Part shown: positions 528 to 15,385 of the stretch, in pieces
Position numbering within the stretch: position 1 is the first letter of the stretch
Layout of the letters: the number at the start of each line of letters is the position of its first letter
DNA from: Bacteroidales bacterium
Lineage (GTDB): Bacteria; Bacteroidota; Bacteroidia; Bacteroidales; UBA932
Direction of reading: 5' to 3'
Assembly (NCBI GenBank): GCA_022653675.1
Contig: JALCST010000006.1
Span: forward strand, 1-64,000
DNA length: 64,000 nt
Translations under genes and position numbers: made by a program
The notes under the pieces: model-generated
The model's database searches: none
Seen by the model: the letters and a program-made list of their open reading frames with translations, nothing else
Told to the model about the DNA's origin: nothing

Positions 528-678
528 TTTCACCGTAGGTAATTTGGGTAAAGAGGCCTCCTGGCTATCCGGAAGGTCGATTTTGGAATGCGGAGTTGTC
601 GACCGAAAAACGACGGGGGCTTTTTGTTGTCTCAACTTACTGAATATCAGCAGTAGTACCCAAATTACCTACGATAAA
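528..678. repeat. Repeat family A, copy A1 (151 bp, inverted termini)
   Basis: The element begins TTTCACCGTAGGTAATTTGG and ends CCAAATTACCTACGATAAA, so its ends are near-perfect inverted repeats. The interior shares AAAGAGGCCTC near the left end and CAGTAGTACCC near the right end with copies at 10739-10891, 14897-15049 and 15233-15385. It starts six bases after the stop codon of the first outer-membrane gene. It holds no credible coding sequence. Confidence 0.75.
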
Positions 679-730
679 TATTTTATTGGAAATGTTAGAT
701 ACATTGTCATTTATCACAAAAAATAATATT

Positions 731-10397: not shown

Positions 10398-10470
10398 GAT
10401 CCGCTAGCTCAGTTGGTAGAGCACAACACTTTTAATGTTGGGGTCTCGGGTTCGAACCCCGAGCGGGTCA
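10398..10470 (+). tRNA. tRNA-Lys (anticodon TTT)
   Basis: A 73-nt cloverleaf. The acceptor stem GATCCGC pairs with GCGGGTC. The D arm contains GCTCAGTTGGTAGAGC. The anticodon stem CAACA/TGTTG encloses CTTTTAA, giving anticodon TTT. The T arm is TCGGGTTCGAACCCCGA. The CCA end is not encoded. No integrase gene or second copy of its 3' end was seen nearby. Confidence 0.97.
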
Positions 10471-10583: not shown

Positions 10584-10712
10584 GAGCGCAGCACTTTTCT
10601 TTCAAACAGCTTGTAATCTGTTGTTTAGAGCAGAGTCGCATAGAGGAATGTGGCCATAGTATTCTACGCAAGTACCTTATTGACAGGTATTAGGGAGAAA
10701 AGTGCTGCGCTC
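10584..10712. repeat. Repeat family B, copy B1 (129 bp, perfect 17-bp inverted termini)
   Basis: It begins GAGCGCAGCACTTTTCT and ends with its exact reverse complement AGAAAAGTGCTGCGCTC. Copies of identical length are at 14637-14765 and 15079-15207. By eye B1 and B3 match at about 119 of 129 positions. No coding sequence is present. Confidence 0.8.
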
Positions 10713-10738
10713 GCCTATTTTCATATCTCCGGGGCAGC

Positions 10739-10891
10739 TTTCACCGTAGGTAAATTGGGGAAAGAGGCCTCACAGGTGTTTCCCGAGCCGATTTTGGAGA
10801 CCGAGTCTGCCAATCGAAAATCGAAACAGAATCTCAAACACAGCTAACTTGCTGATTGCCAATAGTAGTACCCAATTTACCTACGATGAAA
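10739..10891. repeat. Repeat family A, copy A2 (153 bp)
   Basis: It starts TTTCACCGTAGGTAAATTGG and ends CCAATTTACCTACGATGAAA. It is nearly identical to A6 at 15233-15385 (about 149 of 153 positions by eye). It follows B1 after a 26-bp spacer, and the same B-then-A order recurs at 15079-15385. Confidence 0.8.
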
Positions 10892-10914
10892 TGGTCCTCA
10901 CCTTTCGGGAACGC

Positions 10915-10935
10915 TTTTCATCGTAGGTAAATTTG
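10915..10935. repeat. Isolated family A terminus
   Basis: TTTTCATCGTAGGTAAATTTG is a lone left-type terminus. It is inverted relative to the right end of A2, so 10874-10891 and 10915-10933 could form a hairpin stem of about 18 bp with a short loop. Confidence 0.6.
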
Positions 10936-10942
10936 ATAAACT

Positions 10943-10970
10943 AGCCCTTGAGATAACTAAAGGGCTGTTT
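10943..10970 (+). terminator. Terminator-like hairpin
   Basis: AGCCCTT / AAGGGCT forms a 7-bp stem with a 10-base loop, followed by GTTTTG on the plus strand. No plus-strand gene precedes it other than the tRNA about 470 bp upstream, so its role is uncertain. Confidence 0.45.
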
Positions 10971-11116
10971 TGTGGAATCTATTTTTTTGTCAAACTTCCG
11001 GTTGGACCACCACTGCGGGAAAACCATCGCGCAGTGCCAGGGTAATCCTGGTGGCGATATTCATGAACGAGCGGGCAAATGGCAATATCGCCATATCTGC
11101 GGCTTCCAATTAATGA

Positions 11117-11156
11117 CATGGCCCCGGAGGTCTTTCGTGTAACTTCCGGGGCCATG
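11117..11156. other. Strong GC-rich hairpin downstream of the lipoprotein pair
   Basis: CATGGCCCCGGA pairs perfectly with TCCGGGGCCATG (12 bp) around a 16-base loop. It lies 28 bp beyond the stop codon of the minus-strand small lipoprotein. There is no T tract on either side, so it may be an RNA 3'-end stabiliser or a terminator without a canonical U tract. Confidence 0.55.
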
Positions 11157-11183
11157 CCAAAAGAGGAGACGCCATTTATGTTT

Positions 11184-11681
11184 TTACTGCCCCGCTTCCC
11201 ACGCCTTCAGGTCGTCGTCGGTGACGGTATAGGTCCAGGTGTGGTAAGTGTAGTAGTTCTTCCTCCCATTTAGGTCCTGCTGCCATGAACGAGCGGTCCA
11301 CGATGACTCTGAGAACAGGAACTTATGTCCTGTGGGGTTATCAGCTTCCGACTCGTACCAGCCCTTAATCAATGATTTGAATTCTGGGTCACTGTAGAAT
11401 TCAACGTAAGTATTATCGTTTGGAAGGCGAGTGTGAGCAATCAGGTCGAAATACAGTTGATCTTCATATGGAGCCCTACCATTTGCAAGGATTGCACTAT
11501 CTCCCGCATCAATTGAAATGCTATCTGATTTAAAGTTGATAGTGGAAGCCCTTATGTATAAGTTTTGGGTAGAGTTGTTCTGAACATACCAGATTCCTAT
11601 GTATGGTGGATTTAAAAGACTCTCCGGATCGCAGGAGCAGAGCAGAACCAGCATGGAGATAAATATAAGTAATTTTTTCAT
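11184..11681 (-). CDS. Small secreted lipoprotein, unknown function
   Basis: A 165-residue protein whose N-terminus MKKLLIFISMLVLLCSC is a lipoprotein signal peptide with Cys at positions 15 and 17. The mature part is hydrophilic (NPPYIGIWYVQNNSTQNLYI and DLIAHTRLPNDNTYVEFYSD) and looks like a small beta-rich domain. No family is recognised. The ATG at 11681 starts 10 bp after the stop of the large lipoprotein gene, so the two are probably one operon. A longer start inside the upstream gene is possible but would bury the signal peptide. Confidence 0.7.
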   Translation of the reverse strand: MKKLLIFISMLVLLCSCDPESLLNPPYIGIWYVQNNSTQNLYIRASTINFKSDSISIDAGDSAILANGRAPYEDQLYFDLIAHTRLPNDNTYVEFYSDPEFKSLIKGWYESEADNPTGHKFLFSESSWTARSWQQDLNGRKNYYTYHTWTYTVTDDDLKAWEAGQ

Positions 11682-11691
11682 TTGGTCTAAA

Positions 11692-13446
11692 TTAAAAACC
11701 GTAATGTACAAATGTGGTATCGATAGGCACTGACTTCGATGTAAAATTAAGCATCAGTTTTGATTTCAGCGATGCAATGTCATCGACGTCGGAGGTCATG
11801 CACGACATGATTTCGTTAAGTGACAGTATGTTATTGCAATATAGATCCCATACTATGCCTGGCCGAAACCAATAAGAAGCTATAATATTTGGGCATTTAT
11901 ATATAGATGTCAGTTTATGGTTATTGTTAAGCATCTTTTCATATTCCATGATATAACCTACCGCAGTAGCCCACATTTCGGTCACGCCGCATTTGCCGTT
12001 ACCCGAAGATGTCTTTGTCCCGTACGGATCATTGAAAGAAGATGCCACGATGCAGTTCGCTTCATAATCCATCACGTCGGCCCACCATGCCATCCCGATA
12101 CCGGAGTACGAGACATTCCGGAAATGGCTCGCGTGAGAGAACTCATGGCAAACGTCTTCGTAGATGCTTTCGTAAGTGCGGTTTTCTATATCGCATATCG
12201 TTATGTCCGGGCCTAAAAGATCAACCAACAGATCTAAAAGGACGTATGCACCGGCTGTTATTGCGGTGGCTCCAGAACCTGTCACCGGTGCGAAAACCAT
12301 CAGGGATATCAATCCGGCATCCGACAGTGTCGTGTATGGAAGCGTTCCATGGTGAAGCATGAGGGTGGATGCCCCTTCGAAGCTTTCGAGTGCCCAGACA
12401 CGCATGCCGCCTGGCGGCGGGGTTATCCCTTCGTTATCGCAGCGCCTGTACCAGTCGTAAGCCGCATCGTTGATGGCCGCAAGCGCCCATGCCTTCTTGT
12501 CGGCGTCGTTGTTCCTGTCCAGGGTGACGCTTCTCGTCTGCTTCATGTTATAGGTATATGGCATGATCAGTGCAAAGCCATAACCCATATTATAACCGTA
12601 CTCGTTTACGAACCTCAATTCGAACCGCGGGGTTCCTATGATGTCTGACAACCCCGCGATGGTATAGGTCCCGTCACTCCTGGTGAAGCCGGTACGGATC
12701 TTGAGGAATCTTCTTGCTCTCACCTTGATGCCCTTTACCGGAAGCGAAGACGAACGGGCCAGGTCGGAATAAAACATTATTTTGCCGGTATTCGATACTG
12801 TGGAACTGGAGGAGCCGGAGGAGCCTGACGAACTGGAAGAGCCGCCGGAACTGCTTTCGCTCTCGTCCGGATTCGTTATGTCGTACGATCTTTGTTCGAC
12901 CTGCCTGAGGTCGATCCCTTCTTTGGAAGCCGTAGCGGAACTTTCATTATCGGGGATCAGGCACGTGTCCAGAATTTCATACCTGACGGCTTTCGGCAGC
13001 GTGTCGTCTATGGGTACGACGGTATATTGCCATGTGAACTCATCGGGCGGTACTGACGGGTCATGATAATCGCTCGGGTCTCCGAGTACCTCGTAATCCA
13101 ATGGATAGTCGTAATACTCGTAATCCAGATCCATGATCTTGTTGAATTCGAGGGAATCCTCGGGCAGCATTCTTACATACAGATAGTTGGGAGTGATTGC
13201 GCTGTCGATGGCGGCCGTATTGCCGCGAGTGGCTGGGTAAAGCTCTTCGCAGGCGGCCCGCATCGCACCGATGGAATAAGGATTTTCGAGCTTTCTCCCC
13301 AGAACGGAATGGTCGACGACGATTTCGGATGCCTTGTGATGATCCGTCATCATTTGGGTGGGAGTGGACAACTCGTCCTCATTGAACGTAGTGCATGCGC
13401 CAATAGCCATGCACCAGAATAAGATTAGTAGTGATTTCGATTTCAT
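11692..13446 (-). CDS. Secreted lipoprotein with HExxH motif, putative metalloprotease-like
   Basis: A 584-residue protein. MKSKSLLILFWCMAIGAC is a lipoprotein signal peptide (lipobox AIGAC). Residues about 20-190 are acidic and of unknown fold, followed by a Ser/Gly-rich linker (about 195-220). A carboxypeptidase-regulatory-like beta domain follows (TGKIMFYSDLA through RTGFTRSDGTYTIAGL). The C-terminal half contains HEFSH at residues 434-438, an HExxH zinc motif, with E462 24 residues later as a possible third ligand of the gluzincin type. Proteolytic function is inferred from this motif only. It is the first gene of a two-gene unit with the small lipoprotein. It lies in the repeat-rich island. 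Confidence 0.65.
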   Translation of the reverse strand: MKSKSLLILFWCMAIGACTTFNEDELSTPTQMMTDHHKASEIVVDHSVLGRKLENPYSIGAMRAACEELYPATRGNTAAIDSAITPNYLYVRMLPEDSLEFNKIMDLDYEYYDYPLDYEVLGDPSDYHDPSVPPDEFTWQYTVVPIDDTLPKAVRYEILDTCLIPDNESSATASKEGIDLRQVEQRSYDITNPDESESSSGGSSSSSGSSGSSSSTVSNTGKIMFYSDLARSSSLPVKGIKVRARRFLKIRTGFTRSDGTYTIAGLSDIIGTPRFELRFVNEYGYNMGYGFALIMPYTYNMKQTRSVTLDRNNDADKKAWALAAINDAAYDWYRRCDNEGITPPPGGMRVWALESFEGASTLMLHHGTLPYTTLSDAGLISLMVFAPVTGSGATAITAGAYVLLDLLVDLLGPDITICDIENRTYESIYEDVCHEFSHASHFRNVSYSGIGMAWWADVMDYEANCIVASSFNDPYGTKTSSGNGKCGVTEMWATAVGYIMEYEKMLNNNHKLTSIYKCPNIIASYWFRPGIVWDLYCNNILSLNEIMSCMTSDVDDIASLKSKLMLNFTSKSVPIDTTFVHYGF

Positions 13447-14028
13447 AGATGTTGTTATTATTGGTTGGAATAGTTTTATGGGTAAATATGTAAAGGTGTT
13501 CTAAGTTACAGTCATTCCGTGACTTTTCCAAATATTTCCGGATTATTTTGAAGTGAAAGTTAAAAACGCTTTCGAGGACTTTACAGGCCATTGTAACCCG
13601 ACTTCTGGAGTGCACTTTAACCGGACTTTTCTTCTTCTTATACTTCTTCTTTTCTTCCTTGTTTTATCACTTAAGTAATTACTCCATTTAGTAAGATTAT
13701 ATTATACCTGGGCTTGGGAATAAATGGATCATGAATGGAAAACCATGTATGTCCTTTTTTTTGATAATCGTGACATTAAAATCCTTGAATCACCTTTCGT
13801 CGTTTTCCCCTCTGTACTTTTCTTCCCTAAACAAACTTGCCTTTCGCGGATCCGTCCATTTGGATTCGATCGAACGAAATAATGAAGTCTCTTGTCTCAA
13901 GATCGTATTGAATTGGCGATTCCAGCATTTTGCCCGATTTCGATGTTCTACCCCCTTGTTATTACTAATACTAAAATCCAGGAGTAAGTCCTTTAGCTAC
14001 GCTAACCCTTTCCATTATTACCCATTAC
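13447..14028. other. AT-rich gene-free segment
   Basis: I see no supportable gene on either strand. Open frames are short, lysine- or serine-rich and lack family features. The segment may be decayed accessory DNA. Confidence 0.4.
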
Positions 14029-14402
14029 CTAACCAAGACGAAATATCGATACATCGGCGATATCGTAGTAAATGCCGTTAACTTCAACTTGGAATTTCAC
14101 GGAGTCAAATCTGCCCATTATAGCGTTGTATTTCCTTTGTATGATATTCTTCTGCCTGTCGCCGGCAAATGCAATGCGTCGTTTGTATTTGCGCTTCAAC
14201 GATGGTTTTATCCCAAGCTCCCTGACAAAAGAGCTTGTGTCAAAGAATGGGAATGCAAGGAAATCCTTTTTGCTGTCGATCGTGTCCGGAAAAGATTCCC
14301 TGGCTTCCCTCTCCGTTTCACCGTATCCGAAAAGATCCTTTTCCGCTTGCAGCATAAACGCCATATTTCCCGTTCCCCGTTTTTCCCCATTGCCGTTACC
14401 AT
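14029..14402 (-). pseudogene. HicB-like antitoxin remnant (two frameshifts)
   Basis: The long minus-strand frame (14029-14364) reads AEKDLFGYGETEREARESF, followed by FDTSSFVRELGIKPSLKRKY and QRKYNAI...DSVKFQV. This is the layout of Bacteroidota HicB-family antitoxins: an N-terminal small domain, then a helix-turn-helix. The missing N-terminus, NGKYGVYAA, is present just upstream in a second frame, and a start codon (MVTAMGKNG) in a third. Two one-base insertions, one in a G run near 14376 and one near 14350, would explain the breaks. No HicA-like toxin partner was found. The family call rests on recalled pattern. Confidence 0.5.
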
Positions 14403-14636
14403 TCTGATATACTTGCTACTTTTTTTTTGCTTATATGTTTCACAAAAGGTGTTCTAAAAGCAAAATATATTTGTACAGTAACGACGCAACCCTAAGGCTG
14501 AGCCTGCACCAAACCACTTAAAATGTTAAGCCCTTTTTTGTCAAACCTCCGGTTGGGTTCCTAATTTTGGAGAATCGGTCTTGGAAAGTAGTCTGGAGTC
14601 TACGTGGTAACCGAAGCTCCGGTTGGGTTTTTGCGG
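14403..14636. other. Spacer between the HicB remnant and repeat B2
   Basis: No gene. It contains a TATATTTG box at 14466-14473 with nothing coding after it, and two short CTCCGGTTGGGTT segments (about 14550 and 14617) also related to 10993. These may be decayed ends of a third repeat type. Confidence 0.4.
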
Positions 14637-14765
14637 GAGCGCAGCACTTTTCTTTCAAATGGCTTGTAATCTGTTTTTTAGGAGGACATCACATATGGGG
14701 ATATTGTAGTTTTGTCTTGTGTAAATGCTTTGGGGTCAGGCGTTAGGGAGAAAAGTGCTGCGCTT
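14637..14765. repeat. Repeat family B, copy B2 (129 bp)
   Basis: It begins GAGCGCAGCACTTTTCT and ends AGAAAAGTGCTGCGCTT, one mismatch from the perfect inverted repeat. The interior is clearly divergent from B1 and B3 although the length is identical. This supports termini under constraint and a variable core. Confidence 0.75.
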
Positions 14766-14813
14766 GAAATGCACATCCGATAACATAGGCTCCATGCCGC
14801 TCATCGAAAGCGC

Positions 14814-14882
14814 TTTTACCTACGATAAAATAGCCCTAAAACCTCCAAGGCGATTTTCACCTACGCTGAAATCAGACATGTA
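14814..14882. repeat. Degenerate family A termini
   Basis: A right-type terminus TTTTACCTACGATAAAA occurs at 14814-14830. A small palindrome TTTCACCTACGCTGAAA lies at about 14865-14881. Both look like remnants or partial copies of family A between B2 and A5. Confidence 0.5.
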
Positions 14883-14896
14883 CTCCAGAGAACGAT

Positions 14897-15049
14897 TTTC
14901 ACCGTAGGTAAATTTGGCAAACAGGCCTCACGGGTGTTTCTTGGCCAGATTTTGAGAACTGAACCAGGCGATATATGATCTATACGTGGCTCCTAACATG
15001 GCTAACTTGCTGGTTGTCAAGAGTAGTGCCAGATTTACCTACGATAAAA
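14897..15049. repeat. Repeat family A, copy A5 (153 bp)
   Basis: It starts TTTCACCGTAGGTAAATTTG and ends CAGATTTACCTACGATAAAAT. Ends and blocks such as CAGGCCTCACGGGTGTTTC and CTAACTTGCTGGTTG are shared with A2 and A6, while the middle has diverged. Confidence 0.75.
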
Positions 15050-15078
15050 TTATTGGCGGCTATGGAAACAGTCTTAAA

Positions 15079-15207
15079 GAGCGCAGCACTTTTCTTTCAA
15101 TCAGCTTGTAATCTGCTGTTTAGAAGAGAGACGCATAGCGGAATGCGGCCATAGTACTCTACGCAAGTACCTTATTGACAGGTGTTAGGGAGAAAAGTGC
15201 TGTGCTC
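15079..15207. repeat. Repeat family B, copy B3 (129 bp)
   Basis: It begins GAGCGCAGCACTTTTCT and ends AGAAAAGTGCTGTGCTC, with one mismatch in the inverted repeat. It is about 92% identical to B1 by eye and followed after 25 bp by A6, reproducing the B1-A2 arrangement. Confidence 0.8.
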
Positions 15208-15232: not shown

Positions 15233-15385
15233 TTTCACCGTAGGTAAATTGGGGAAAGAGGCCTCACAGGTGTTTCCCGAGCCGATTTTGGAGACCGAGT
15301 CTGCCAATCGAAAATCGAAACAGAATCTCAAATACAGCTAACTTGCTGATTGCCAATGGCGGTACCCAATTTACCTACGATGAAA
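15233..15385. repeat. Repeat family A, copy A6 (153 bp)
   Basis: TTTCACCGTAGGTAAATTGG to CCAATTTACCTACGATGAAA, nearly identical to A2. It forms the right half of the second B-A composite. Confidence 0.8.

Follow-up and report, generated by a model that had tools for sequence, protein, structure and literature searches.

The 129-bp units described here are very probably (we put this at about 85%) non-autonomous palindromic doublets that are dispersed in trans by a RAYT-like Y1/HUH transposase. The evidence comes from their copy number and fixed length, from the flanking of the transposase gene by copies, from the one-to-one pairing of two such genes with two element families, from a common subterminal motif, and from the recurrence of this arrangement in relatives. 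In the mechanism we propose, each unit would be made up of two inverted half-elements of ~44 nt around a spacer of ~41 nt, and each half-element would comprise a 20-nt terminal inverted repeat, a few free bases, and a subterminal motif of about YTNNNNARTCWRNNNNTTA. When the element DNA is single-stranded, the ends would pair to form a hairpin. The product of the gene that we call RAYT1 (G000:C2:61563-62483) would bind and cut this single-stranded DNA and so disperse B-type units in trans, and the motif and the length may be what it reads.

The arrangement is of interest because one genome holds two RAYT genes, each with its own family of fixed length, and other genera add further pairs that have unrelated ends and the common motif. 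Such gene and family pairs are swappable substrates for asking which part of the element the enzyme reads and why the length stays constant, and they bear on how RAYTs recognise and spread elements other than canonical REPs.

Elements of constant length with inverted ends

The window, by which we mean the whole 64,000-nucleotide stretch analysed, is part of contig C6 of a 2.18-Mb genome that is 85.8% complete. Three elements lie in it on the plus strand, B1 (10584-10712), B2 (14637-14765) and B3 (15079-15207), and a preliminary description of this DNA gave their coordinates and their length of 129 bp correctly. It also called their ends identical. The left ends are indeed the same in all three, but only in B1 is the right end perfectly inverted relative to the left, over 17 bp (20 bp when G-T pairs are counted); the right ends of B2 (...GCGCTT, in which the last base is changed) and B3 (...TGTGCTC) each have one mismatch to it. 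For the same reason B2, which was thought to keep its ends around a strongly altered core, has the altered core (75% identity to B1) and one imperfect end. Despite that core, B2 is an ordinary member of the larger, main subfamily B, while B1 and B3, which are 92% identical, belong to a minority group together with another copy on contig C21. The 17-mer end, allowing up to 3 mismatches, occurs six times in the window against 0.13 expected from shuffled sequence, and none of 100 shuffles gave six, so a chance origin of these ends is excluded. In B1, arm comparison places a left subterminal motif, CTTGTAATCTGTTGTTTA, at 10610-10627 on the plus strand and its right counterpart, in inverse orientation, at 10669-10686 on the minus strand; the left motif is common to other RAYT-linked families.

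Two other features adjoin these elements. A module of ~92 bp that ends in CCGGTTGGGTCTTTGCGA (window 14539-14636) lies ahead of B at several sites and is also present in places that lack B. A tRNA-Lys(TTT) gene lies just upstream of B1 (window 10398-10470), with an anticodon arm, GAGCACAACACTTTT, that is similar to the element end GAGCGCAGCACTTTT; the similarity may be fortuitous. We considered a tRNA-derived origin on the strength of this likeness by eye and of the position of B1, but discarded it, as a tRNA gene is present at only 4 of the 21 loci scanned.

Searching the genome with B1, with the end, with inverted pairs of the 9-bp end at 114-144 bp total, and with the second subfamily, we found 21 dispersed copies (16 of subfamily B, 4 of subfamily C and 1 of subfamily D), so that the genome-wide search for inverted end pairs suggested in the preliminary description had a positive outcome. 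All copies align end to end, gap-free between subfamilies; 20 are 129 bp long and one is 128 bp. Parsimony on the copy tree requires ~293 substitutions vs a single indel; the 89-column core accounts for 276 of the substitutions. Length variation among many copies had been named beforehand as the result that would speak against a fixed-length element, and it did not appear. We also asked whether the length reflects coding, given that 129 = 3 x 43, but no reading frame is open through all copies, and this explanation was dropped even though the C-terminus of RAYT1 makes use of the start of one copy.

Inverted ends of the perfect type, dispersed copies and the lack of coding capacity would also describe a classical MITE, that is, an element derived by deletion from a DDE transposon whose TIRs are 17-20 bp long. 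We regard this as extremely unlikely, because decay would bring the length variation that is almost absent here, because no consistent direct repeat or target-site duplication is evident in the flanks of the copies (a point that counts against our own proposal too), and because the gene bounded by these ends is of the Y1/HUH type.

The 20-bp terminal stem is paired in 96% of cells, and three of its pairs have changed on both sides. The fold of the hairpin is very stable (z about -4 to -7). On the plus strand the stem has 47 G-T vs 6 A-C pairs, and therefore this strand folds better, which would fit an RNA as well as a single-strand DNA substrate that is strand-specific. A core hairpin, by contrast with the terminal stem, forms only in some copies; the strongest helix in the core is paired in 68% of cells and is broken throughout entire subfamilies, and we rejected it as a common structure.

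The stability of the fold, its strand bias and the position of most copies downstream of genes are what one would expect of a structured RNA, a possibility that the preliminary description had also considered. Such an RNA would be a hairpin for regulation or mRNA stability, retained at the 3' ends of many genes, with its length set by the constraint of the RNA fold. This account is very unlikely in our judgment. There is neither a conserved, covarying core fold nor an Rfam match for the element (the Rfam search of the element region returned tRNA as its only match), the cores of sister families look nearly random, and an RNA role would not account for the separate family around each RAYT gene. 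The doublets may nevertheless have a secondary role as RNA.

Outside this genome, we found no match to B in phages, plasmids, viral contigs and species genomes, sets from which near relatives may be absent. Across 200 genomes of the family, we found only unrelated repeats containing GAGCGCAGC; in G134, G071 and G171 these are repeats with GAGCGCAGCGAGGAATCTC ends that share this 9-mer.

Two RAYT genes and their element families

A genome-wide search with the Pfam model Y1_Tnp (PF01797) matched one gene, at C2:61626-61931, within the 306-aa open reading frame of RAYT1. The match scores 40 bits, above the cutoff of 23; the NCBIfam model REP_Tyr_transpos (REP-associated tyrosine transposase) gives an E-value of 3e-12, which is below that model's cutoff and is a second point against the proposal. 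RAYT1 has the motifs THIH and YFFYNP, and an alignment of 11 relatives shows no change at their residues H, H, Y, N and P; the distance from HUH to Tyr is ~57 residues. A conserved C-terminal block resembles a helix-turn-helix in the alignment and has no Pfam match, and a profile search of the PDB with RAYT1 gave no significant match, which likewise speaks against the proposal.

Copies of the element flank RAYT1 closely. The reading frame starts 51 bp past a copy of subfamily C and runs on into the following copy, whose first 47 bp encode the C-terminus of the protein up to the stop codon; two further copies come after it in a 170-bp tandem. For a gene of this length, the probability of having copies no more than 60 bp away on both sides by chance is ~5e-5. 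The cognate transposase with the same ends that the preliminary description called for thus exists and is flanked by copies, but it is a RAYT-like Y1/HUH enzyme and not the transposase of a classical TIR transposon. Within G000:C2:61383-62905 (L086, L089), we noted that the array behind RAYT1 has a period of 170 bp (129 + 41) and that degenerate 33-bp partial units, AAAAGAGCGCAGCCTCCTCCCGTGGCAGACCCC, lie before the gene.

A protein search identified a second gene, RAYT2 (C2:100431-101279), which is 38% identical to RAYT1 and is flanked by four copies of a different element, family A. This family has inverted TTTCACCGTAGGTAAATT ends and is also of fixed length, all 17 pattern matches having an inner span of 141 bp and an overall length of 153 bp. 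Three copies lie in the window on the plus strand, beside B1 (10739-10891), between B2 and B3 (14897-15049), and beside B3 (15233-15385), so that B1 and B3 each adjoin a family A element. A degenerate copy outside the search pattern (window 528-680), measured between the same markers, falls 1 bp short of this, and some family A sites are tandem arrays with a period of ~177 bp. Since RAYT1 is flanked by B-type copies and RAYT2 by family A, the two genes pair with two families.

Homologous RAYT genes are carried by 47 of 150 genomes of the same family, this one included. At 39 RAYT loci of relatives (E <= 1e-12, this genome excluded), we counted 34 inverted doublets no further than 200 bp from a gene end, vs 5 at 700-1250 bp, and doublets are present on both sides of the gene at 12 of the loci, with a median span of 127 bp. 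The doublets flanking these genes are ~106-151 bp long and their ends are mostly unrelated to those of B. At about 10 of the loci the downstream doublet overlaps the 3' end of the RAYT gene, an overlap that the text of PMC3733652 already notes as "3'ov". Near more distant Y1 genes doublets are rare (4 at 29 loci). Two of the relatives' families were followed genome-wide. The G113 family has 17 copies with an inner span of 123 bp (14 copies) or 122 bp (3 copies), and the G101/G113 family, in which the cores are nearly random, has 26 copies with an inner span of 104 bp (25 copies) or 105 bp (1 copy).

When the arms of B, family A, G113 and G101/G113 were aligned from their ends, we found the motif of about YTNNNNARTCWRNNNNTTA to be common to all four families. 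Its TTA begins 41-45 nt from the end in both arms, though the left arm of family A has only a weak version of the motif. Because the motif was derived from these four families, we ran a separate test on 36 doublets from 18 other RAYT loci, none of which had been used to define it. The mean best motif score was 9.0 of 11 in these doublets compared with 7.9 in shuffled cores, where the highest of 200 shuffle means was 8.1; as doublets within one locus are related, we take this enrichment as support and not as an exact probability.

It is quite possible, if somewhat short of probable, that these doublets form a distinct RAYT-dependent class with two half-sites, each made up of a family-specific terminal repeat and a class-wide motif, at a spacing fixed to the base pair. 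The transposase complex or the hairpin substrate would then act as a length ruler, and the terminal repeat could change freely while motif and spacing are kept.

Dispersal and placement of the copies

Where sites were compared, several pairs are homologous from B's left end (to within 0-10 bp) to the vicinity of family A's right end, and the sequence outside is unrelated (for example, L011 vs L012, in which the homology runs from 0 to 367). Part of the spread has therefore taken place as composites of B, spacer and A. In many composites (L009, L011, L012, L007 and others) a third short module of ~72-75 bp, GAAATGCACGTCGGCCGCC..., sits between B and A at about +130 to +206 after B; it is missing in L013.

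Comparison of sites within the genome revealed neither a clean empty site nor an insertion polymorphism, which counts against the proposal. At C10:70208 the left flank of the copy matches a repeat that is free of any element at window 13491-13537; the match is not taken up again by the right flank, and the site therefore does not qualify as a clean empty one. The repeat itself, AAAGGTGTTCTAAGTTACAGTCATTCCGTGACTTTTCCAAATATTT, is 47 bp long; its two occurrences, at that window position and at G000:C10:70156-70202, are 96% identical, and one lies upstream of a gene and the other directly adjoins a B element. Nine of 15 regions lie between convergent genes, a context that is approximate given the crude ORF calls; convergent intergenic placement is also reported for REPs in the text of PMC3733652.

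Some of the dispersal, as composites or as tandem units, could have been copied by ordinary recombination, and this also weighs against the proposal. Taken further, the repeats might be passive, ancient palindromes copied only by recombination or segmental duplication and kept for DNA binding (by gyrase or a nucleoid protein), with the RAYT now inactive. The 170-bp tandem units at the RAYT locus, the shared composites, and the presence of RAYT1 as a single copy in the genome all fit such a history, which we nonetheless consider unlikely, because what several composites have in common is limited to the segment between B's left end and roughly A's right end, with unrelated flanks, and because the pairing of family and gene recurs across genera. 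Dispersal by a RAYT-like transposase remains our preferred reading. The preliminary description had suggested a non-autonomous mobile element, and the 21 dispersed copies, the homology blocks bounded by the element end, and the transposase gene flanked by copies all agree with it; from these we infer mobility, the copies probably having spread through the action of RAYT1 on the single-stranded element.

Comparison with known systems

ERIC and Correia-type elements are intergenic imperfect palindromes of ~100-150 bp, as are the elements described here, a likeness in description only. They are not known to pair with a RAYT, unlike the B elements.

In the way it would work, the B element is a REPIN. 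As in the REPINs of Pseudomonas fluorescens SBW25 (PMC3116915), two conserved inverted ends enclose a variable spacer at a conserved distance, a single-stranded DNA hairpin with compensatory changes is predicted, and each family adjoins its own RAYT. It differs in that the unit is longer, the copies are few (~20), and the end sequences, read directly, contain no small self-palindrome and no GT[AG]G in either arm. Inverted ends, spacer, hairpin and the link to a cognate RAYT are thus as in canonical REPINs and the REP-type ends are not, and this departure too counts against the proposal. Fixed length as such is not new, since Bertels and Rainey already stressed the conserved length of REPINs (PMC3116915).

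In Bacteroidetes, the text of PMC6006769 describes TnpA_REP subclass 2.6, Y1 genes flanked by atypical structures of which more copies occur in the genome, as here. The distance from HUH to Tyr is given there as ~82 residues, whereas it is shorter in RAYT1, and the structures are resolved here as doublets of fixed length.

Because the ends are not GTAG REPs, the published definitions favour TIRtron over REPIN as the better fit (PMC3733652, PMC6006769). TIRYT/TIRtron of PMC3733652 largely corresponds, as far as the texts describe them, to TnpA_REP subclass 2.1 of PMC6006769, which has a C-terminal helix-turn-helix domain; according to the text of the latter, genes of subclass 2.1 have no REP-like sequences nearby, and those of 2.6 have only the "atypical structures". 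Both in TIRtrons and here, a RAYT-like Y1 gene is flanked by long inverted repeats that are unrelated to GTAG REPs and sometimes overlap the gene end, and there are dispersed families of the repeats as dimers or clusters. The sequence GGGGWSAS, found in some published TIRs only, is not kept here, and part of subfamily B has a 7/8 match to it, GGGGAGAA. A further difference is that on each side of the gene there is here a full inverted doublet whose length is strictly fixed, and that families with unrelated ends share a subterminal motif, which does not figure in the texts of PMC3733652 and PMC6006769, supplementary tables aside. What is added here to the known systems is the strict length in four families with almost freely varying interiors, the common motif across unrelated ends, and the pairing of gene and family.
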